Source: Bacteroidales bacterium
GTDB taxonomy: Bacteria; Bacteroidota; Bacteroidia; Bacteroidales; UBA932
NCBI GenBank assembly: GCA_017472115.1
Contig: JAFUQW010000136.1
Span: 1 to 13,818 of the forward strand
Length of the DNA stretch: 13,818 nt
Direction: 5' to 3'
Positions within the stretch are counted from its first letter, which is position 1. The number at the start of each line of letters is the position of its first letter. Below the pieces are notes generated by a model, which worked only from the letters and a program-made list of their open reading frames with translations, did no database searches and was not told where the DNA came from. Shown in pieces: positions 3,562 to 13,818 of the stretch. Both the position numbers and the translations under genes were made by a program.

Positions 3562-4245
3562 TCATTTAGACGAAATATAAGTCATTACAGTCCTTTTGAT
3601 CAGCTCCAGATCTGTCAGTGAGTCCGAGACCTTCCTCATGAAGCCGACATAGGCTTCGTAATCATCCGCCTTGCCATATCCGGCAAGTTCTTCCTTAAGC
3701 TTTTTCTCAGCCCTTTCCTCTGCAATACGGACCCTGTACCGGAACAATCCTGTAACATACGCAGTCTTTTCCTGACCGAGCTGCTCGAGATTTACGAATG
3801 TGAAAACAACTCTCTGCACAGGCGTCATCTTAAGCGAAGTGCGGCAGAACAGTTCCCAGGCCTGGGTGGTGATGTAATCGTCGGTATTCTCCGCTTTCGG
3901 CTTCGATACCGCAAACAATGCCGGTCTTTTCCCGAAGAAATGTAGAATTCTCCGCCGGCTTATCCTCAGACGGGACAGATAGAATGTACGGCGGAGAAGC
4001 CATTCCTCAAGAGTGAATCTGTCGTCATATTGATCGAAATTATGCCACAGATAGATGAACACCTGCTTCGCGACAGCCTCGCTGTCATTCCGGTCACAGA
4101 GTATCCTGAAAGTGGTGCGTGAAATCAGAGGAAGATATCTGTTCATTATCTCCATGAATGCATCTTCGCGGCCTGCCGCAACATCGCGTAACAGAGCCAT
4201 GTCTCCCCTGTCACTCAGACTTATGAAAGTATCATTGTTGTCCAT
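3562..4245 (-). CDS. ECF sigma-70-like factor with degenerate region 4
   Basis: A 227-residue soluble protein. Residues ~28-100 resemble ECF sigma region 2: AFMEIMNRYLPLISRTTFRI, then NDSEAVAKQVFIYLWHNFDQYDDRF, EEWLLRRTFYLSRLRISRRR. This follows the usual pattern of RIL-D--DAE-V-QEVF--LW and a WL-RI--N---D--RRR helix. Residues ~130-190 align in position with region 4, but the normal helix-turn-helix core (LSYKEIA--LGIS--TVK) is replaced by LGQEKTAYVTGLFRYRVRIA, so DNA binding at the -35 is doubtful. A ~40-residue C-terminal tail follows. It is transcribed away from the efflux operon, with a 223-bp shared upstream region that carries the TTTACAC/GTGTAAA array. It may regulate that locus or a distant one. 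Calling it a working sigma factor is an inference. Confidence 0.6.
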   Translation of the reverse strand: MDNNDTFISLSDRGDMALLRDVAAGREDAFMEIMNRYLPLISRTTFRILCDRNDSEAVAKQVFIYLWHNFDQYDDRFTLEEWLLRRTFYLSRLRISRRRILHFFGKRPALFAVSKPKAENTDDYITTQAWELFCRTSLKMTPVQRVVFTFVNLEQLGQEKTAYVTGLFRYRVRIAEERAEKKLKEELAGYGKADDYEAYVGFMRKVSDSLTDLELIKRTVMTYISSK

Positions 4246-4315: not shown

Positions 4316-4345
4316 GTTTACAGCCTGTGTAAAGAAACTTTACAC
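4316..4345 (+). promoter_or_regulatory. Upstream activator-type inverted repeats, copy 1
   Basis: The core is GTGTAAAGAAACTTTACAC at 4327-4345, a perfect 8-bp inverted repeat around AAA. A further TTTACA half-site at 4317-4322 faces the left arm, so three half-sites alternate in direction. A near-identical array stands at 12010-12038 before the ATPase gene, at almost the same distance from a TTTGGCAC box (74 against 73 bp). That spacing fits an enhancer site for a sigma-54 activator; the activator gene is not in the window. Confidence 0.72.
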
Positions 4346-4398
4346 CGCAGCCGTCCGAGCAAACCACACAAATACACGTATATCAACTACTTACGCAC

Positions 4399-4415
4399 TT
4401 TGGCACACCTGATGT
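4399..4415 (+). promoter_or_regulatory. Sigma-54-type promoter before tolC-like gene
   Basis: TTTGGCAC is an excellent match to the sigma-54 -24 element (TGGCAC). The -12 region at the right distance reads ATGT, keeping the TG but not the C of the consensus TTGC. The predicted start near 4426 leaves a leader of about 42 nt to the ATG. The same TTTGGCAC with the same upstream repeats recurs before the ATPase gene, which is stronger evidence than the match alone. Confidence 0.65.
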
Positions 4416-4468: not shown

Positions 4469-5944
4469 ATGAAACAACACATCATCACGACAATCACGGC
4501 AATCGCCCTCGCGACGTCAGCCATCCAAGCGCAGGACAGGATGACTCTGGGACAGGCAATATATACGGCCCGAAACAATTCGGTGGAAGCACTCGAGGCA
4601 AAGCAGGCTTTTGTCTCGACTTACTGGGCGTACCGTTCCTACAAGGCAAGCCGTCTCCCGTCGTTCTATTTTTATGGTAACCTGATGAATTTCGACAGGT
4701 CGCTCACACTCCTGCAGAACTATGAGGACGGATCGTTCAATTATGTCAGCAGCAACAATCTGCAGAACAGTCTCGGCCTGCAGGTCAACCAGAACATAAC
4801 CTTCACAGGCGGTACCCTCTCCGTGTCGGCAGATCTCTCCCGTATCGACCAGTTCGGCAACGACAGAAGCCTCACATGGTACTCAAGGCCCGTGACGGTA
4901 TCTTACCATCAGCCTCTCTTCACCTACAACCAGTTCAAATGGGACAAGCTGATCGAGCCGAAGGAATACGAGAAAGGCAAAAGGCAGTATCTCGAGGACA
5001 TGGAAGGCATCACCATCAACGCGGTCTATGCATACCACAACCTGCTCCTCGCCAAGATGAACAACGAGATCAGCAGAAGCAACTTCGACAATTCAAGCAG
5101 GATGCTCAAAGTGGCAAAGGAGAGACTTCTTCTCGGTAATGTGACCCGTGCGGAATACCTCCAGCTTGAGCTCAGGATGCTCAACGACAGCATTTCCATC
5201 AACGAGACCGACGTAACGGTCCGTGAGGCGCAGATGAGGCTCAATTCGCTTCTCGGCTATGATGAATCATTCCTTATCGAGCCGGTTCTTGAAGAGGAAC
5301 TTCCCGACATACGGATGGATTATGACCTTGTGATGGAGAAATCACTCAGCAATTCGACATTCAGCCTGAACAACGAGCTCAGCCTGCTCAATGCAGAATC
5401 GTCGGTGGCGGCGGCAAAGGCATCACGTGGTTTCTCGTTTGCACTGAACGCCCGCTTCGGAATGTCACAGACAGGGCCGGAACTGCCCCAGGCCTTCAAG
5501 GACCTTCTGGATCAGGAGACGGTGGGCATAACCTTCAGCATTCCGATCTTCGACTGGGGCCAGGGCAAAGGCAAGGTGCAGAGGGCTAAGGCGGCGCAGG
5601 AGGTCGTAAGGGCACAGGTGCAGCAGTCGGAGAATGATTTCAGACGCCAGATGTTTACGGCCGTCAGCCAGTTCAACAACCAGAGACAGCAGTGCCTTGT
5701 GTCGCAGAAGGCGATGACAGTGGCCAAGGAGCGATACGACCTTACGATGCACCGTTTCAAGGAAGGAAATGCTACCGTAACCGACATCAATATGGCACAG
5801 ACGGAAAATGACAGCGCCATGAGGCAATACATCAGCGATCTCAGCAATTTCTGGACATTCTATTATACGTTAAGGCAATATACGCTTTATGACTTCATCA
5901 ACGAATGTGATCTTGAGATCGATGTCAAGGAAATGATTCTTTAA
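4469..5944 (+). CDS. TolC family outer-membrane efflux protein
   Basis: A 491-residue outer-membrane channel protein. It opens with a signal peptide (MKQHIITTITAIALATSAIQA, cleavage before QD) and has no lipobox cysteine, so it is not a NodT-type lipoprotein. The mature protein begins MTLGQAIYTARNNS, the typical start of the outer membrane efflux repeat (PF02321), and has two helical-hairpin repeats (roughly residues 25-250 and 285-475). The second is marked by GITFSIPIFDWGQGKGKVQRAKAA and a long heptad-rich helix. TolC-like trimers form the exit duct of tripartite pumps. It heads the operon: the adaptor starts 20 bases after its stop. The leader is AT-rich with no Shine-Dalgarno, as is usual in Bacteroidetes. 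Expression is probably driven by the TTTGGCAC promoter upstream. Confidence 0.92.
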   Translation: MKQHIITTITAIALATSAIQAQDRMTLGQAIYTARNNSVEALEAKQAFVSTYWAYRSYKASRLPSFYFYGNLMNFDRSLTLLQNYEDGSFNYVSSNNLQNSLGLQVNQNITFTGGTLSVSADLSRIDQFGNDRSLTWYSRPVTVSYHQPLFTYNQFKWDKLIEPKEYEKGKRQYLEDMEGITINAVYAYHNLLLAKMNNEISRSNFDNSSRMLKVAKERLLLGNVTRAEYLQLELRMLNDSISINETDVTVREAQMRLNSLLGYDESFLIEPVLEEELPDIRMDYDLVMEKSLSNSTFSLNNELSLLNAESSVAAAKASRGFSFALNARFGMSQTGPELPQAFKDLLDQETVGITFSIPIFDWGQGKGKVQRAKAAQEVVRAQVQQSENDFRRQMFTAVSQFNNQRQQCLVSQKAMTVAKERYDLTMHRFKEGNATVTDINMAQTENDSAMRQYISDLSNFWTFYYTLRQYTLYDFINECDLEIDVKEMIL

Positions 5945-5964: not shown

Positions 5965-7221
5965 ATGGATAGAGCAATAGAAAAGAAAAAGGGCATCGCC
6001 CTCGTATTCAGCAAGAAAGCACTCCCTTGGTGGTTCGGCGGATTAATGGTCATATTCATCATGTGGCTTATCTTCCGCGATGACGCAAGCACACTCCGCG
6101 TCAACGGAGAAACCCTCTCGGTCAGCGAGGTTACAGCCGGGGAATTCAACGACTATATCCGCATCAGCGGTCAGGTACACCCGATGACTACCATCCAGGT
6201 GAGCCCGCGAGAGGCAGGAATAGTGGAGGAGATCGTGTGCGAGGAAGGATCGCAGGTGAAGGCAGGAGACGTGATCGTACGTCTCAGCAACGACGATCTT
6301 GATCTTGAGATCCTCAATTCGGAAGCCAATCTGGCAGAGAAGGAGAATGCCTTGAGAAACACGATGATACAGATGGAGCAGGAGAAGATGCAGCTGAGCC
6401 TCAATATTCTCGAACTCGAGACTGAAGTCAAGAGGAAAGGCCGCACCCTCGAATCACAGAAAAGGCTTTTCGACGAGGGACTCATCGGGAAAGAGGAATA
6501 TCTGCGCAGTGAAGAGGACTATGTGCTCTTCTGCAAGAAGTTAGAGGTCACATTGGCCCGCGCGGAACAGGACAGCATGTACAGAAGCGTGCAGATCAAG
6601 CAGATGGAGGAAAGTCTTGAGAACATGAAGGTCAACATGCAGAGAATCCGCAAGAGAAAGGAGAATCTTGCCGTCAAGGCTCCTATTGACGGAGAGCTCG
6701 GCCTTCTTGAGGTGGTTCTGGGACAATCTATAGGCAGCGGAACGAAGATCGGACAGATAAACGATATGGGAAGTCACAAGATCGAAGCTATGATCGACGA
6801 GCATTACATCGACAGGGTCAGCGCAGGACTTAACGCCACTTTCGAGCGTCAGAACGAGACCTACGATGCAGTCATCCGCAAGGTTTATCCGGAAGTTCGC
6901 AGCGGCAAGTTCCAGGCAGACTTCAGATTCAGCGGAGAGCAGCCTTCAAACATCAGAACCGGCCAGACATACTACCTCAACCTCCAGCTGGGCCAGCCGG
7001 AAAAGGCTATCCTGATACCACGCGGAACATTCTACCAGAAGACCGGAGGAAAGTGGATTTATGTCATTTCTCCGGAGGGAGGCAAGGCTCTCAAGCGCGA
7101 GATCCGAATCGGCCGTCAGAATCCGCAGTTCTACGAGGTGCTTGAGGGACTGGAGCCGGGCGAGAAGGTCATCACTTCGGGATATGATAATTTCGGGGAT
7201 AACGAGGTGCTGGTATTCTGA
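5965..7221 (+). CDS. HlyD/MacA-type periplasmic adaptor (membrane fusion protein)
   Basis: A 418-residue adaptor that links the inner-membrane permease to the TolC channel. One transmembrane anchor at about residues 20-37 (PWWFGGLMVIFIMWLIF) leaves the rest in the periplasm. The first half of a biotinyl-lipoyl domain is at 76-110 (AGIVEEIVCEEGSQVKAGDVI), a long coiled-coil hairpin at about 112-235, the second lipoyl half at 236-266 (VKAPIDGELG), a beta-barrel to about 350 and a membrane-proximal domain to the end (GLEPGEKVITSGYDNFGDNEVLV). The order matches MacA and HlyD-family proteins. It lies between the tolC-like gene and two MacB-type permease genes, so this is an ABC-type rather than RND-type pump. 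The 107-base gap after it is filled by palindromic repeats. Confidence 0.92.
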   Translation: MDRAIEKKKGIALVFSKKALPWWFGGLMVIFIMWLIFRDDASTLRVNGETLSVSEVTAGEFNDYIRISGQVHPMTTIQVSPREAGIVEEIVCEEGSQVKAGDVIVRLSNDDLDLEILNSEANLAEKENALRNTMIQMEQEKMQLSLNILELETEVKRKGRTLESQKRLFDEGLIGKEEYLRSEEDYVLFCKKLEVTLARAEQDSMYRSVQIKQMEESLENMKVNMQRIRKRKENLAVKAPIDGELGLLEVVLGQSIGSGTKIGQINDMGSHKIEAMIDEHYIDRVSAGLNATFERQNETYDAVIRKVYPEVRSGKFQADFRFSGEQPSNIRTGQTYYLNLQLGQPEKAILIPRGTFYQKTGGKWIYVISPEGGKALKREIRIGRQNPQFYEVLEGLEPGEKVITSGYDNFGDNEVLVF

Positions 7222-7328: not shown

Positions 7329-9668
7329 ATGAAAATCAAGGAAACAATAATAAAGGCTCTGTCGCTCGGTACAGGACTGGCGATCGGAATGCTGCTCATT
7401 GCAAAGGTATGCTACGAGATGAGTCAGGACAAGTGCTACTCTGACTATGGACAGATATATAAGATCCGCACCCTATATACACAGCATGGAGATGATATAG
7501 AATATGACAACATATCAGGTGCAGTAGCCCCTGGATTCAGGCAGCATGTCCCTGGAGTGGAGGCAGCGACAAGATGGACATTCATCTTCAATAGTGACCG
7601 TTTTACAGATGAAGAGAAGAACGTCATTGAAGGAGAGATAATAGTAGTAGATAGTTGCTTCTTCGATGTATTTGATACTGAAATACTTGCTGGCAATCCG
7701 AAGGAAGTGTTCTCGGAAATCGCATCTGCAATGGTCTCCGAGTCATTTGCAAAGAAGATGGGAGGTGTGTCCGAGAGTATCGGGAAGGTGATCTTCAATG
7801 AAGATATGCCGACTCTTCCGATCACCATCAAGGGAGTATTCAAGGATTTCCCTCACCACAGTTCGATCAGAAATGATGTGCTGATCTCTATGGAGACCAT
7901 TGTGAAGCAATCTACTGAAAACTGGGTGGGAAATGACAGATATAGAGGATATGTAAGGCTTGCAGAGGGAACCGACCCGGATATGCTTGCACCGGCAATC
8001 AGACAGATGCAGGAGAAGAACTATCCGCCTGAAATGGTACAGATGGCCGAGCAGTCAGGAATTGACATCCATTACTTTTTGAGTCCTCTGACCGGGATGG
8101 AGATGCTTCCGGATCAGACAAAGTCCATGATCATCATCCTGACTGTGGTGGCATTACTTCTGATAATGATATCTTTACTGAACTATGTGCTCATGTCTGT
8201 ATCAGCACTTGTAAAGAGGTCGAAGGAAATGGGAGTAAGGAAGTGCTATGGAGCAGAAGGCAGGACCATCTATGGAATTATGAGCAAAGAGGCACTGACT
8301 GATATTGCAGCAGCACTTATCGTAACTGCAGTGGTCATTCTTCCGCTGCGCTCAGTGATTCAGGACCTCATTGGTGTTCCTGTTGACGCACTTATGGTCA
8401 GCACCACATATTTTACTGTTGCAGGTGTCCTTGCAGTTGTATTCATCGTGGCTGCACTCGTTCCGGGCTATCTGTATTCAAGGATTCCAGCCGGAGCGGC
8501 CATCAGGAACTACAGGGAGAACAAGAAGGTGTGGAAACTCGGCCTGCTCTTCATACAGACAGGAATCTGTGCCCTTTTTCTGACACTGATGTGCGTGATC
8601 TCCGCACAGTACGACAAGGCTGTCAATGACAAGCCCGGTTATGAGTACAGGGACCTGCTCTGGACCGTACTCACAGGAACAGACAATGGAGTGCATCAGG
8701 GAATCATTGACGAGCTTAAGACTTTGCCCGGCGTGATGGACGTGCAGATGTCATATAGTCTGCCGTTAGATTTCAGTTCAGGAAACAACGTCTTACTTCC
8801 CGGAAAAGAATATACTGAGTTATTCAACATCGCCGATCAGTATGAAGGAACTGAAGGATTATTTGAGATGCTGGAGATTCCTTTCGTCGAGGGACGGTAC
8901 CCGCAGAATGCTTCAGAGATTGCAGTCAGCGAGAGTTTCGTAAAGAAGATGATGGAGTTCCAGGACTGGAGCGACGGAGCAGTGGGTAAGCAGATTGCAG
9001 TTACCGAGCATAGTCAGACTCCGGATGAGGTATTCACTGTAAGCGGAGTGTATAAGGACTACAGGATCAACACACTGACAAATCAGGATATGCGTGCCAG
9101 CGTCAAGTTCTTCGGAGAAGTAGGCAAGGCATACATGCCGTTCATGGCCATCAAGGTCAGCGAAGTGAATACAGATATCATTCAGAAGGTGGAGGAAGTC
9201 ATCCAGTCAAGGATTGAGAACAGAGAGGTGGAAGTCAAATCCTACAAGGACTCGATGAGGGAGGCTTATTCCGGTGAGAGACGAATGAGGAACACCGTGC
9301 TTGCGGGATGCATAATATCGATACTTATCGCCCTTTTCGGTCTGATCGGATATATCCGCGACGAGTCGCAGCGCAGAAGCAAGGAGATGGCTGTCCGCAA
9401 GATCAACGGAGCGACAGTCAAGGAGATAATGGGAATATATGTGGCAGAGATAATGAAGCTCAGCATTCCGGCAATCATCATCGGAAACGTGGGAGCCTGG
9501 TTTGCGGCATCAGCATGGCTCAGGAACTTCTCGGAGAAGATCGCTCTGTCGGCATGGTACTTCATCGCAGCAGATATTGTAATAATAGTGCTTGTGGCAG
9601 CCAGCATCGTGCTGAACAGCCTCAGGATTTCCCGAAGCAACCCTGTGGAATCGCTGAAGAACGAATGA
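7329..9668 (+). CDS. FtsX/MacB-type ABC transporter permease 1
   Basis: A 779-residue inner-membrane permease made of two MacB/FtsX-like halves. Transmembrane helices fall at about 7-27, 267-289, 321-340, 361-382, 403-425, 656-676, 711-728 and 743-763, with large periplasmic MacB_PCD-type domains at about 30-265 and 426-652. The cytoplasmic coupling motif appears twice and is well kept: RSKEMGVRK at 297-305 and RSKEMAVRK at 683-691. It carries no ATPase domain, so it depends on a separate ATP-binding protein, probably the one encoded at 12159. The start MKIKETIIKALSLGTG is shorter than usual for this family, and no better upstream start exists because the gap is filled with repeats. By hand count, parts of the first third are lower in GC than the flanking genes. 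The cargo is unknown. Confidence 0.9.
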   Translation: MKIKETIIKALSLGTGLAIGMLLIAKVCYEMSQDKCYSDYGQIYKIRTLYTQHGDDIEYDNISGAVAPGFRQHVPGVEAATRWTFIFNSDRFTDEEKNVIEGEIIVVDSCFFDVFDTEILAGNPKEVFSEIASAMVSESFAKKMGGVSESIGKVIFNEDMPTLPITIKGVFKDFPHHSSIRNDVLISMETIVKQSTENWVGNDRYRGYVRLAEGTDPDMLAPAIRQMQEKNYPPEMVQMAEQSGIDIHYFLSPLTGMEMLPDQTKSMIIILTVVALLLIMISLLNYVLMSVSALVKRSKEMGVRKCYGAEGRTIYGIMSKEALTDIAAALIVTAVVILPLRSVIQDLIGVPVDALMVSTTYFTVAGVLAVVFIVAALVPGYLYSRIPAGAAIRNYRENKKVWKLGLLFIQTGICALFLTLMCVISAQYDKAVNDKPGYEYRDLLWTVLTGTDNGVHQGIIDELKTLPGVMDVQMSYSLPLDFSSGNNVLLPGKEYTELFNIADQYEGTEGLFEMLEIPFVEGRYPQNASEIAVSESFVKKMMEFQDWSDGAVGKQIAVTEHSQTPDEVFTVSGVYKDYRINTLTNQDMRASVKFFGEVGKAYMPFMAIKVSEVNTDIIQKVEEVIQSRIENREVEVKSYKDSMREAYSGERRMRNTVLAGCIISILIALFGLIGYIRDESQRRSKEMAVRKINGATVKEIMGIYVAEIMKLSIPAIIIGNVGAWFAASAWLRNFSEKIALSAWYFIAADIVIIVLVAASIVLNSLRISRSNPVESLKNE

Positions 9669-9701: not shown

Positions 9702-12005
9702 ATGAACAGTTTCATCAACTTTCTGAAAAGAAACAAGGCTTATACGGCCATCAATCTGCTCGGTCTGACAATCTCGATGACTTTCGTACTCATACTTGCC
9801 GTATATGTGCAGAAACAGTTGTCAACAGATTCGTTCCATGACAAGGGCGACAGGATTATGATCATCGCAAATGACTGGTACGCAAGCGCATATCACCTGA
9901 AGGACCACATGAGGGACAGGTATCCTGAAATCGAGAGTTATTGTGCATTCATGCATGAGGACAAGATACAGGCGGAAATCGACGGAAATACATTCTCAGC
10001 AGATTACAATTATGCAGATTCCACTTTCTTCGACATATTTTCATTCGATATTGCGGAGGGTGATGCCGAAGCATTCAAGCATTCTGTCAACAACATCGTG
10101 ATCAGCGAGAGTTTTGCCCGCAGGATGTTTCCTGACAAGGAAGCGATCGGACAGCAGATCGGCGAAAACACTGTCGTGGCCGTAATGGAGGACATAAACA
10201 ATTCAGTCCTGCCATATTGCGACATTCTTCTGAGAGGTGAATGGATGGAAAAGCATAATCCTTCCCACAATATGGATCTCGGCAACAGCGGAAGTGTACA
10301 GACTTTCGTACTGGTGAAGGAAAACTGCGACCTGATGTCCCGCAGAGATGATATGCTCGAATATTTCAAGGAAATATGGTGGACATACAAAGGAGGCGTC
10401 AGCACCGAACTGCGCCTGATCCCGCTGCGTGACATCTATTTCTATGACACAGACAGCATTCCTCAACTGTTGAAAGGCGACAAAAGTGTGGTCGGAATGC
10501 TTGCCATGGTCTGCATCGTACTTCTCATATTCACCATATTCAACTATGTGAACATGACCACGGCGCTCAGCGGATTCAGGGCTATGGAAATGGCTTCCAG
10601 ACAACTCATCGGTGCATCAAGAACCGGCATTTTCGCGAAACTCATCTCTGAATCGACGATTCTATGCTTCATTGCGACCGCCTTGGCCTTCTTCATCGCC
10701 GAAGGACTGTCGCCTGCCGCATCGGGAATACTTGAATATGATTTCTCGATTTTCGAGGCGGCCACACCTGGCAACATGGTCATACTCATCGCCTTCATCA
10801 TGCTGCTCGGAACACTGTCAGGACTCATTCCGGCTCTCGTGCTTCTGAGAGTAAGACCGATAGACATCGTAAGGGGCTCATGGAGAACAAGCACCAAGAC
10901 CATAGGAAGCAGGATAATCATTGTCCTTCAGACCGTGACCACGATGTGCATGCTGACGGCGGCGTTAACCATGAACAGACAGATCAATCACATGCTCGAA
11001 GCACCTCTGGGCTACAACACAGAAAATGTAATCAATATCGAGAACAATTTCGGATTGCCGGATAAACTGAATGTGGTGAAGGAAAAACTTCTGACGCTGC
11101 CATGCGTTGCCAATGTAGGATACGGTCAGGGCACACCGCTCTACGGAACGAACAACAACACCATGGAGATCAAGGGACTCGGCTACATCTCCTTCCAGCA
11201 GTTCATTGGAGACCAGGGATATTTCGACATTCTGGGAATCCGGGAGAAACATGACAACAATGCCCCATACAAATACTGGTTCAATGAATATGCATTCAAG
11301 GAACTCGGAATCAGCGAGGACACTCAGATCATCATGGCCGGCAATGATGATTGGGAAAGCAAGATGCCTGTCGGAGGAGTATATTACGATTTCAAGGTGC
11401 GTCCTCTTCTTGAAGACCAGTCATCAGCAATGATTTTCAACTATCGTGACAAATGGCCGGACCAGCTTTATCCGTGGAGCATCCTCGTCCAGATTTCCGG
11501 AGACAAAGAGGAGGCGATAAGTGCAGTCGAGGCGGCATTTGCGGAAGTCTTTCCTGATGTCCTGTTCAAAGGCCGATACATAACGGATGAAGTTGCCGAC
11601 ACATTCAAGAAAGAAATGAAGATACTTGACATAATCTCGCTGTTCACCTTGATTTCGATCTTCGTGTCCATGCTCGGACTCTTTGCAATGAGCATGTACT
11701 ATATGAGTCAGGAAAGAAAGACCGTCGCATTGAAGATTATAATGGGGGCAGAGAGGAAAAGGGTATTTGCGGCACTTGTCGGCACTTTCATGAAGATGGC
11801 GCTTGTCGCTGTCGTGACAAGCATCCCTGTGGGATGGTTCGTGATGGAAAGGTGGCTCGACTCCTTCAGTTACAGGATTCCTATGTACTGGTGGGTATTC
11901 GCAGCGGCTGCCGGGATCACTCTCATGACATCCTTCGTCACCGTACTGTGGCAGAGTATCAGGACCGCTGACACCAACCCTGTGGAATCGCTGAAGAACG
12001 AATGA
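9702..12005 (+). CDS. FtsX/MacB-type ABC transporter permease 2
   Basis: A 767-residue permease with the same eight-helix, two-half plan as permease 1: helices at about 16-38, 262-284, 317-335, 357-382, 402-423, 643-668, 696-715 and 729-750, separated by two large periplasmic domains. The N-terminus (NFLKRNKAYTAINLLGL) is typical of Bacteroidetes members. Its coupling motifs have drifted: FRAMEMASRQLIGAS at about 292-306 and QERKTVALKIIMGAE at about 670-684, against the RSKEM(A/G)VRK of permease 1. It starts 33 bases after permease 1 with no promoter visible, so it is probably co-transcribed. Its last 31 bases, including the stop, are identical to those of permease 1. It lacks an ATPase domain and probably uses the ATPase encoded just downstream. 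Confidence 0.9.
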   Translation: MNSFINFLKRNKAYTAINLLGLTISMTFVLILAVYVQKQLSTDSFHDKGDRIMIIANDWYASAYHLKDHMRDRYPEIESYCAFMHEDKIQAEIDGNTFSADYNYADSTFFDIFSFDIAEGDAEAFKHSVNNIVISESFARRMFPDKEAIGQQIGENTVVAVMEDINNSVLPYCDILLRGEWMEKHNPSHNMDLGNSGSVQTFVLVKENCDLMSRRDDMLEYFKEIWWTYKGGVSTELRLIPLRDIYFYDTDSIPQLLKGDKSVVGMLAMVCIVLLIFTIFNYVNMTTALSGFRAMEMASRQLIGASRTGIFAKLISESTILCFIATALAFFIAEGLSPAASGILEYDFSIFEAATPGNMVILIAFIMLLGTLSGLIPALVLLRVRPIDIVRGSWRTSTKTIGSRIIIVLQTVTTMCMLTAALTMNRQINHMLEAPLGYNTENVINIENNFGLPDKLNVVKEKLLTLPCVANVGYGQGTPLYGTNNNTMEIKGLGYISFQQFIGDQGYFDILGIREKHDNNAPYKYWFNEYAFKELGISEDTQIIMAGNDDWESKMPVGGVYYDFKVRPLLEDQSSAMIFNYRDKWPDQLYPWSILVQISGDKEEAISAVEAAFAEVFPDVLFKGRYITDEVADTFKKEMKILDIISLFTLISIFVSMLGLFAMSMYYMSQERKTVALKIIMGAERKRVFAALVGTFMKMALVAVVTSIPVGWFVMERWLDSFSYRIPMYWWVFAAAAGITLMTSFVTVLWQSIRTADTNPVESLKNE

Positions 12006-12009
12006 GGAA

Positions 12010-12038
12010 CTTTACACTTGTGTAAAGAAATTTTACAT
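12010..12038 (+). promoter_or_regulatory. Upstream activator-type inverted repeats, copy 2
   Basis: CTTTACAC at 12010-12017 and GTGTAAAG at 12020-12027 form a perfect 8-bp inverted repeat with a 2-nt spacer, and a third half-site TTTTACAT follows at 12031-12038 after AAA. GTGTAAAGAAATTTTACAT differs from the copy-1 core at 4327-4345 in only 2 of 19 bases. It starts 4 bases after the permease 2 stop codon. Confidence 0.72.
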
Positions 12039-12090
12039 CCGCCCCGACGGAACAAAACCATACAAGACTGAATATTAACAAGTTAGACAC

Positions 12091-12106
12091 TTTGGCACGA
12101 TAGTGC
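12091..12106 (+). promoter_or_regulatory. Sigma-54-type promoter before the ATPase gene
   Basis: TTTGGCACG matches the -24 element including the trailing G. A GC dinucleotide, the -12 hallmark, is present at 12105-12106 but leaves 9 rather than 10 bases after the GG. A start near 12118 gives a leader of about 40 nt, matching copy 1. The short spacing is the main weakness of the call. Confidence 0.6.
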
Positions 12107-12158
12107 TACAAGAAAAGACATATTTGAAAACAATTATTAACAATCAATACAAAGAATC

Positions 12159-12839
12159 ATGATTACAGTAACAGAACTCAGCAAGGTTTTCCGCACAGAG
12201 GAAATCGAAACCACAGCACTCAACAAGGTTTCATTCGAGATCAACGACGGCGAATTCGTAGCCATCATGGGCCCTTCAGGATGCGGCAAGTCAACTCTCC
12301 TGAACATCCTCGGACTTCTTGACAACCCTACCGACGGCAGTTATATGCTTCTCGGACAGGAGGTTGCAAAGCTGAAGGAGAAGGACCGCACCAAGTTCCG
12401 CAAGGGCAATATCGGCTTCGTGTTCCAGAGCTTCAACCTCATCGACGAGCTTAATGTGTATGAGAATGTGGAGCTTCCGCTGAAGTATCTCAACATCAGT
12501 TCTTCAGAGCGCAAGCAGCGTGTGAACGATATGCTCAAGAGGATGAACATCAGCCACCGTGCACAGCACTTCCCTCAGCAGCTTTCCGGTGGTCAGCAGC
12601 AGCGTGTGGCGATAGCCCGTGCAGTCGTATCGAATCCTAAACTGATCCTCGCCGACGAGCCTACCGGTAATCTCGACTCGAAGAACGGAAAGGAGGTGAT
12701 GGATCTTCTGTGCGAGCTCAACAAGGAGGGTACGACAATCGTGATGGTGACCCACTCGCAGAAGGATGCGGCTGTGGCTCAGCGTACCATCAATCTTTTT
12801 GACGGTGAGATCGTCAGCGATGTAAAGAACGAACTTTAG
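12159..12839 (+). CDS. MacB/LolD-type ABC transporter ATP-binding protein
   Basis: A 226-residue ATPase with every motif needed for activity: Walker [10 protein letters not shown] at 38-46, Q-loop glutamine at 90 (FVFQSFN), signature LSGGQQQR at 142-149, Walker B LILADEP at 162-168 with catalytic E167, D-loop NLDS, and the switch histidine at 199 (VTHS). The close spacing and the [16 protein letters not shown] segment are typical of the LolD/MacB/FtsE branch that drives FtsX-type permeases. It is the only ATPase gene in the window, follows two permease genes and precedes a third. It has its own TTTGGCAC promoter with the same upstream repeats as the tolC-like gene, so it is probably made together with the whole pump. 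It ends at a TAG followed by a repeat-filled gap. Confidence 0.95.
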
Positions 12840-12895: not shown

Positions 12896-12960
12896 TTCAT
12901 CCTGACATTCCCCAATGTCATCCTGAATGTTCTCACATGTCATCCTGAACGTTCTCACAT
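12896..12960 (+). repeat. Tandem partial copies of the palindromic repeat
   Basis: Three head-to-tail partial units each start (G/T)TCATCCTGA, at 12896, 12917 and 12939, giving steps of 21, 22 and 22 bases to the full copy at 12961. The second and third are nearly identical (GTCATCCTGAA(T/C)GTTCTC plus ACAT). They contain only the left end of the 26-nt palindrome. The surrounding 296-base gap between the ATPase and permease 3 holds no gene that I can support. Confidence 0.75.
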
Positions 12961-12986
12961 GTCATCCTGAACGAAGTGAAGGATCT
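12961..12986 (+). repeat. 26-nt GTCAT...ATCT palindrome, copy D
   Basis: It begins GTCATCCTGAACGAAGTG and ends AAGGATCT, with ATCCT/AGGAT stem ends. It faces copy E at 13009-13034 across 22 bases; the two could pair as a long imperfect stem. Confidence 0.8.
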
Positions 12987-13008
12987 TTTACGCAAAAAAT
13001 CATATTAA

Positions 13009-13034
13009 AGATTCTTCGCTACGCTCAGAATGAC
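13009..13034 (-). repeat. 26-nt GTCAT...ATCT palindrome, copy E
   Basis: On the minus strand it begins GTCATTCTGAGCGTAGCG and ends AAGAATCT. It is nearly the same as copy A at 960-985 and is inverted relative to copy D. Confidence 0.8.
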
Positions 13035-13079
13035 AAGGAAAGGTTCTGAATGACAAGGAAAGGCACTGAATGACAGGAG
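13029..13079 (+). repeat. 20-nt tandem repeat of the palindrome's outer end
   Basis: AATGACAAGGAAAGG plus five bases occurs at 13029 and 13049, with a third shorter copy AATGACAGGAG at 13069. These carry the AATGAC outer end of copy E repeated outward, mirroring the tandem partial copies on the other side of the array. Confidence 0.7.
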
Positions 13080-13135
13080 AAAAATAAAAGAACATTGACA
13101 TATAGACACGAAATCAACCCTATAACAACTGACAA

Positions 13136-13818
13136 ATGGCATCATTCAACATATTCAGACGAGGCGGCTCGGCAATATCAGGAACACTCAATGTCCTGGG
13201 CATGGCTGTGGCGTTCGCAGCATTCTACCTCATTCTCGTTCAGGTGGATTACGACCTGACCTTCAACCAGGGCATCCAGGATTCGGAAAAGGTCTTTGTG
13301 ATGTCTTCCGGCAGCATGGACGGAGACGCCGACAAGAGACAGCTGAACTTCTGCCGTCCTCTGGCAGAAATCATCCTTGAGGCATCTCCGAATATCGAAT
13401 ACGGAGGTATCCTGAGTTTCAGCGGAACTGAGGACTCAAGATACTGGATTGAAAGAGATGGTGTAAAGCAGGATATAGACCTTGGCGTCACCAATTTCTC
13501 CGGAACGGCTCTGGAAGCGTTGGGAGTGGAAGTGGTGAGCGGCTCGATCGAAGACCTTTCTGATACAAAGTCGTTTGCCATCAGCGAAAGCATCGCCGAG
13601 AAGTTCGATCTTGAGATAGGAATGGGTCTCGGCTATGAAGGATATGCCAACCTCAGGACAATCAAAGCCATCTTCAAGGATCTGCCGGAGAACTCTCATT
13701 TCGCAGATGTGAAGGTCCTCAGAAATCTGGGAGATGACGGGATAACCAATTTCTCGGAATGGGGATACCATTATTTCATTAAGGTTTACGACCCTTCTCA
13801 GATCAAGGATATGGAGGA
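13136..13818 (+). CDS. FtsX/MacB-type ABC permease 3, cut by window edge
   Basis: An open frame of 227 codons from ATG at 13136 to the right edge without a stop. It starts MASFNIFRRGGSAISGTLNV, followed by a transmembrane helix at about residues 15-37 (LNVLGMAVAFAAFYLILVQV). A periplasmic domain then has the family pattern seen in permeases 1 and 2: the DYDLTFNQ segment after the helix, FAISESIAEKF (compare AMVSESFAKKM and IVISESFARRM), and IKAIFKDLPENSHF (compare IKGVFKDFPHHSS). This marks it as a third member of the same permease family. It follows the ATPase gene on the same strand after a 296-base gap filled with palindromic repeats, so co-transcription is likely but could be reduced by the repeats. 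I see no promoter directly before it. Confidence 0.85.
   Translation, partial: MASFNIFRRGGSAISGTLNVLGMAVAFAAFYLILVQVDYDLTFNQGIQDSEKVFVMSSGSMDGDADKRQLNFCRPLAEIILEASPNIEYGGILSFSGTEDSRYWIERDGVKQDIDLGVTNFSGTALEALGVEVVSGSIEDLSDTKSFAISESIAEKFDLEIGMGLGYEGYANLRTIKAIFKDLPENSHFADVKVLRNLGDDGITNFSEWGYHYFIKVYDPSQIKDME

Follow-up and report, generated by a model that had tools for sequence, protein, structure and literature searches.

A probable sigma-54 efflux regulon in Bacteroidales with an upstream enhancer and an IHF-like palindrome in its promoters

The locus and its genes

The window, i.e., the whole stretch of DNA analysed, is Bacteroidales DNA comprising positions 1 to 13,818 of contig JAFUQW010000136.1 (GCA_017472115.1). 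It carries a set of efflux-type genes and two similar control blocks, one preceding the TolC-like gene and the other preceding the ABC ATPase gene (Table 1). The permease-like gene at the right edge has a relative of 95% identity in one related locus (L020), also standing after the ATPase. The closest protein found for the window is 97% identical, and the closest loci in the species-genome collection are MAGs, many of them from ruminant gut by title, in which the identity of the TolC-like protein reaches 82-83%. Regarding known exporters, the ATPase, adaptor and FtsX/MacB permease families are common to the darobactin exporter DarBCD and to MacAB-TolC pumps; however, the proteins studied here score below the Dar cut-offs (ATPase 291/375 bits, adaptor 207/450), and their clusters possess many permease copies.

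Besides these genes, a 227-aa ORF runs divergently from promoter 1 on its upstream side (3562-4245, reverse strand); it has no Pfam match, resembles a small sigma-factor-like protein by eye and has relatives of 38-48% identity at the same place in five loci (L001, L005, L006, L008 and L020). Part of the interval that separates the ATPase from the permease-like gene downstream (12905-13085) is a run of short repeats (TGTCATCCTGAACG..., and AGAATGACAAGGAAAGG on the opposite side) that looks like a dispersed intergenic repeat.

Table 1. Coordinates of the genes and of the observed or predicted control elements in the window.
Feature	Position	Strand	Basis or remark
Extra half-site TTTACA, promoter 1	4317..4322	+	Upstream of full site
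Enhancer palindrome TGTAAA-N5-TTTACA, promoter 1	4328..4344	+	Pattern scan, conservation; proposed NtrC-type regulator site
IHF-like palindrome, promoter 1	4369..4393	+	Dyad 4381; 11/14 consensus positions, right half complete
Putative sigma-54 promoter 1	4401..4415	+	-24 TGGCAC 4401-4406; -12-like ATGT 4412-4415
TolC-like outer membrane efflux protein	4469..5944	+	Pfam OEP; first gene after promoter 1
HlyD-type periplasmic adaptor	5965..7221	+	Pfam HlyD_3
FtsX-type permease	7329..9668	+	Pfam FtsX
FtsX/MacB-type permease	9702..12005	+	Pfam FtsX + MacB_PCD
Extra half-site TTTACA, promoter 2	12011..12016	+	Upstream of full site
Enhancer palindrome TGTAAA-N5-TTTACA, promoter 2	12021..12037	+	Pattern scan, conservation
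IHF-like palindrome, promoter 2	12061..12085	+	Dyad 12073; 12/14 consensus positions
Putative sigma-54 promoter 2	12093..12107	+	-24 TGGCAC 12093-12098; off-register -12-like TGC 12104-12106
ABC ATPase	12159..12839	+	Pfam ABC_tran; first gene after promoter 2
Further permease-like gene, start only (cut by window edge)	13136..13816	+	Relatives after ATPase in related loci

Enhancer and promoter elements across relatives

The first-pass annotation had described the two blocks as one duplicated sigma-54-type region, in which an inverted-repeat array is followed by weaker similarity, TGGCAC and a short leader. The array is indeed shared, with the cores GTGTAAAGAAACTTTACAC at 4327-4345 and GTGTAAAGAAATTTTACAT at 12020-12038. 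A pattern covering both cores, with up to three mismatches, would occur by chance 0.01 times in the window; its sole matches are the two cores, the one at 4327-4345 being matched on both strands. Together with the reversed control, which yields 0 matches in the relatives' genomes, this rejects a chance origin, which had been judged hard to accept from the beginning. The distances agree as well, as the T of TGGCAC lies 74 bp (4401) and 73 bp (12093) from the G of the respective core, against the 73-74 bp formerly given, and a longer string, CACTTTGGCAC, begins 5 bp ahead of that T. The leaders, put at about 40 nt, measure 41-43 nt to the ATG at 4469 or 12159, assuming a start approximately 25 bp after TGGC.

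Rather than forming a single duplicated region, the blocks belong to a conserved set with many members. Among 38 related loci, the 37 whose sequence extends upstream of the TolC match were inspected for the enhancer and TGGC. Both stand, in some cases with a mismatch, before TolC in the 24 loci with at least 76% TolC identity and in the fragment L038 (69%); no enhancer was found before 12 more distant TolC genes (L024-L032 and L034-L036), where a one-mismatch scan of the loci was also empty. Genome-wide, TGTAAA-N5-TTTACA-N45-70-TGGCA gives 37 rows in 16 of the 17 relatives' genomes, with one place counted twice and one palindrome counted in both directions, and its reversed form gives 0; the conservation on which the first reading had been made to depend is thus present.

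For comparison of the elements, the sites of related loci and of the window having up to two enhancer mismatches and TGGC at 71-74 bp were collected (42 distinct), leaving 35 non-redundant sites after the removal of those at least 75% identical; because the clade sites are related by descent, they do not represent 35 independent events. Sites of shared descent stand before different genes. By BLAST, the first downstream ORF is TolC in 19, FtsX in seven and the ATPase in five, so that 31/35 fall in three families, in shares biased by the many loci fetched by TolC. Four are unassigned: the L001 site precedes its TolC gene by position, the L078 site precedes a 438-aa ORF ahead of an adaptor-like ORF, and the others belong to L074 and L087. 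TolC, the ATPase and the FtsX/MacB permeases would then form one sigma-54 efflux regulon. Such a link has a precedent, as predicted sigma-54 promoters were reported to be enriched for COG0577 in Bacteroidia and termed the first evidence for the FtsX-like family (PMC12316311, 2025). That work shares with ours the sigma factor, the target family of ABC permeases and the class; however, the passages concerned name no operator, activator or bending site for it, and the terms IHF, UAS and 'upstream activat' are absent from the main text.

In an order-wide survey, the enhancer pattern occurs in 60/393 Bacteroidales genomes (108 rows, compared to 12 reversed-control matches). After dropping four rows of G001 and two duplicates, the enhancer-to-TGGCA distance in the remaining 102 rows is 70-73 bp in 61, 80-83 bp in 16 and 74-79 bp in five. 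Peaks one helical turn apart are expected from contact on one face of the DNA, and they offer a natural phasing experiment.

The inverted-repeat array is real, but its composition differs from the one first given, consisting of one full 17-bp site, TGTAAA-N5-TTTACA, and an upstream half-site, TTTACA, found 10-11 bp before TGTAAA in 33/35 sites. Thus, the half-site is nearly invariant, while the full site is invariant by selection. The outward palindrome TTTACAC-N2-GTGTAAA was rejected as an operator, since it arises where the half-site meets the full site. A conserved left half, which would make a second dimer site upstream, was not found in the close clade (35 sites). One locus (L215, G363:C26) has two complete tandem TGTAAA-N5-TTTACA sites ahead of an FtsX-like ORF. 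A predicted sister operator, TGTCAA-N5-TTGACA, gave a weak result, with 19 rows in 18/360 genomes against eight reversed-control matches.

Regarding the promoter itself, the consensus -24/-12 pattern is found 23 times in the window against 31.7 expected; because this is not above chance, the claim rests on conservation. In the -24 element, TGGCA is present in 35/35 sites, TGGC being a selection criterion, and the next C in 32/35. The -12 element of sigma-54 promoters is TTGC at a fixed spacing. Here, G occupies the key position (+13) in 30/35 sites and is followed by C in only five, and the TGC of promoter 2 (12104-12106) lies one base closer than the consensus spacing, in line with the imperfect -12 half that had already been recognised. 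TTGM-like -12 elements at the correct spacing occur in several distant Bacteroidales promoters.

These features bear on a reading without sigma-54, where TTTGGCAC merely contains the TTTG box of a housekeeping promoter and a repressor sits at the palindromes. The housekeeping consensus of Bacteroidales includes TAnnTTTG, and TTTG does lie within the motif in most sites; however, TAnnTTTG fits 0/35 sites in either placement, and TGGCAC and the G at +13 are conserved, so that the housekeeping promoter was rejected and is held to be highly improbable. For Flavobacterium psychrophilum, a sigma-54 regulon with a -24/-12 motif has been described and one of its promoters was tested by mutagenesis, the main text containing no occurrence of 'ABC transporter' or 'IHF' (PMC9723704).

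The linked regulator and kinase

Both rpoN and PF00158 activators are found in 17/17 of the relatives' genomes, and the absence of rpoN or of NtrC-family genes would have spoken against the first reading. A class of NtrC-type response regulators of approximately 450 aa, bearing GAFTDA or GSFTDA and with a kinase gene after it, is present in 14/17, being absent among the PF00158 matches of G014, G015 and G016. In 12 of these genomes, G004 and G006 being the exceptions, the regulator gene and a site occur on the same contig, separated by less than 1 kb in L117 and L118 and by approximately 50 kb in G003, the extremes of the range. The gene is located beyond the FtsX cluster (e.g., L103, L105, L106, L108, L113 and L114) or divergent from the TolC promoter (L116-L118), and in distant Bacteroidales the enhancer is divergent to an NtrC-type regulator in four loci (L239, L241, L242 and L243), the first of them Pfam-confirmed.

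Pfam assigns receiver, Sigma54_activat and HTH_8 domains to both clade regulators tested and to 4/4 others, and the ORF after the regulator shows HATPase_c and PAS in 2/2 tested (403 and 374 aa), with HisKA absent or below the cut-off and an N-terminus that is hydrophobic by eye. Thus, a response regulator and a kinase of the kind foreseen near the locus are encoded in the relatives at these positions. The receiver, AAA+ and HTH_8 architecture is the same as in regulators of the NtrC, ZraR and AtoC types; however, the linked regulator is below every curated cut-off among the models listed, and GAFTDA or GSFTDA replaces GAFTGA, the canonical loop of the NtrC family.

It could be argued that another PF00158 activator reads the enhancer and that the linked regulator controls something else, as each of the 17 genomes has other such activators and as G014 and G015 have sites where the regulator class was not found. 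Against this, regulator and site share a contig in most genomes, stand side by side or divergently in several, distant relatives included, and are both missing from G016, making this alternative unlikely. That the two blocks are sigma-54 promoters, probably driven by a two-component regulator, is, as judged from the comparison of genomes, well supported, and the sigma-54/NtrC reading of the first-pass annotation gains from the rpoN and NtrC-type genes and the blocks kept in relatives.

Other ORFs were observed in these clusters. ORFs of approximately 156-168 aa beginning like MKNYRLAVDENGSPFVLNSKGSIDF, sometimes in tandem, lie in or beside the FtsX/regulator clusters of L103, L107, L109 and L114, and in L108-L110 (G001:C27) the stretch from TolC to the regulator is occupied by many consecutive long FtsX/MacB-like ORFs, most beginning MKSYLRFLSRNKLYTAIEVVGLS.

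The spacer palindrome and a candidate bending protein

The weaker similarity reported between the core and TGGCAC is real and corresponds to an element overlooked at that time. This is a 25-bp palindrome, YAAnnnnYTGAnnnTCARnnnnTTR, conserved in the 35 sites at a constant register relative to TGGCAC; it is centred at -20, counting from the T of TGGC. When the sites are aligned on TGGC, A at -31, A at -16 and T at -9 occur in 35/35 and T at -24 and T at -10 in 32/35, all of them positions outside the selection criteria. The palindrome scores a mean of 12.1/14, compared to 5.1 when the spacer is shuffled (sd 0.30, maximum 6.3, 5000 runs) and to at most 6.6/14 at 31 other registers. Moreover, a matrix of the right half applied to the reverse complement of the left half gives +5.8 for an offset of -33, whereas 40 other offsets all score -7.5 or less.

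Compared with the IHF consensus WATCARNNNNTTR, the right half matches at a mean of 6.3/7 and the left half, as a mirror image, at 5.8/7. In its complex with the lambda H' site, IHF presumably has its structural dyad at the position matching the dyad of the palindrome. As given in the passages concerned, the consensus reads WATCAANNNNTTR (PMC8942017) or WATCARxxxxTTR (PMC3897727), and the right half equals this published form, the whole being two face-to-face copies on one dyad. An FNR-type box was rejected for this element, whose centre is 3 bp.

In the order-wide rows, 77 of which have the whole sequence, the palindrome scores 8.6/14 (5.3 in shuffles) in the 65 at 69-73 bp and 4.1 in the 12 others. 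A strict palindrome with TTTGGCAY, allowing one mismatch, gives 43 rows in 31/393 genomes, compared to 15 with the register shifted by 5 bp and 6 in the reversed control, the latter being too lenient for palindromic patterns, as a loose search gave only 22 reversed matches; background may account for about one third of the 43 rows. That loose gapped search of the 393 genomes came out close to chance; the gap histogram was near-flat, with 18 of the 149 listed rows at gaps 5-6 against 11.5 expected (p 0.04), one duplicate row having been removed. Among the strict rows, 7/43 coincide with enhancer rows, and other inverted repeats are visible by eye upstream of such rows (17 loci and part of the fetched regions). 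Six promoters were chosen for an efflux-like next gene, and the Pfam assignments of these genes agree (TolC in three, otherwise HlyD, ABC ATPase and MacB/FtsX); near three of the promoters, NtrC-type regulators were likewise confirmed (L245, L247 and L248). Other rows precede other or unnamed genes (e.g., L169, L171, L176, L178, L190 and L195), so the element is probably confined neither to efflux nor to the TGTAAA enhancer.

The same observations touch a further alternative, which keeps sigma-54 and the activator and assigns the palindrome, as an operator, to some other regulator that these promoters share. A palindrome alone names no protein, and the HU-family proteins of the relatives are below the IHF cut-offs. 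However, the half-site is exactly the IHF consensus in the published passages, the enhancer-promoter interval is the classical place of IHF as these describe it, and related elements occur in promoters lacking the TGTAAA enhancer; this alternative is considered possible, if rather doubtful.

We regard it as likely that a four-part sigma-54 promoter, a regulator and DNABII bending together switch the efflux regulon. The four parts would be the 17-bp enhancer with its upstream half-site, the IHF-like palindrome, the -24 element TTTGGCAC and a degenerate -12. A histidine kinase with PAS and HATPase_c domains would sense a signal and phosphorylate the NtrC-type response regulator, which may then assemble on TGTAAA/TTTACA. 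Bending of the spacer at the palindrome would fall to a DNABII protein, probably the IHF-beta-like protein of the HU family acting as a homodimer, allowing the AAA+ domain to reach the sigma-54 polymerase and open the promoter, so that TolC, the ATPase and the FtsX/MacB permeases would be switched on together. Conservation, register, spacing, gene content and the presence of rpoN, regulator and kinase in relatives are read directly from the genomes; from these we infer the pairing of protein and site, the phosphorelay, the bending, the signal and a substrate.

As described in part of PMC3897727, the orp operons of Desulfovibrio vulgaris likewise have a palindromic activator site upstream and an IHF site before the promoter, with sigma-54 dependence expected; here, in contrast, the IHF-like palindrome is two-sided and its register is fixed, efflux genes are the target and the host belongs to Bacteroidota. 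The sigma-54/FtsX link in Bacteroidia was previously predicted, and in the open-licence literature no publication was found that describes the operator, the regulator or, for Bacteroidales, an IHF site of palindromic form. Sigma-54 control outside Pseudomonadota is called less explored (PMC12316311). The result offers an operator together with a candidate regulator and kinase, as well as a set of targets, the efflux pumps of gut bacteria, which are directly testable.

As for the bending protein, the 11 relatives searched have PF00216 (HU/IHF-family) genes, one in seven genomes, two in three and three in one, as counted in MAGs, which may be incomplete; one gene of the multi-copy genomes has an internal stop. 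Separate IHF alpha and beta subunits were not distinguished by the curated models, the best model being IHF-beta for both the common type (59/115 bits) and the second type (66/115), below its cut-off. For the common type, the best matches among solved structures are 2iif, entered as Integration host factor, and 1hue (HU). Because seven of the 11 relatives show a single PF00216 gene, a homodimeric IHF-like bender is proposed, working like IHF by analogy though not classed as IHF, and a homodimer would explain the palindromic site. Parts of PMC3897727 and PMC8942017 refer to IHF subunits binding or being active as homodimers, and the HU protein PG0121 of P. gingivalis is discussed as a homodimer in a passage of PMC3969353.

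In its most specific form, which we hold to be evenly balanced, the proposal is that a homodimeric, sequence-specific IHF-like protein of Bacteroidales reads the two-sided 25-bp site as the fixed-register scaffold of sigma-54 promoters for NtrC-type control of FtsX/MacB-TolC efflux sets. The palindromic site predicts how a DNABII protein of a single subunit could be sequence-specific; if true, the one-sided site and heterodimer of E. coli would be only one of two solutions. The HU-family proteins of the relatives (L153-L168) have Ile in RNIT where the aligned HU/IHF chains listed have Pro (RNP).
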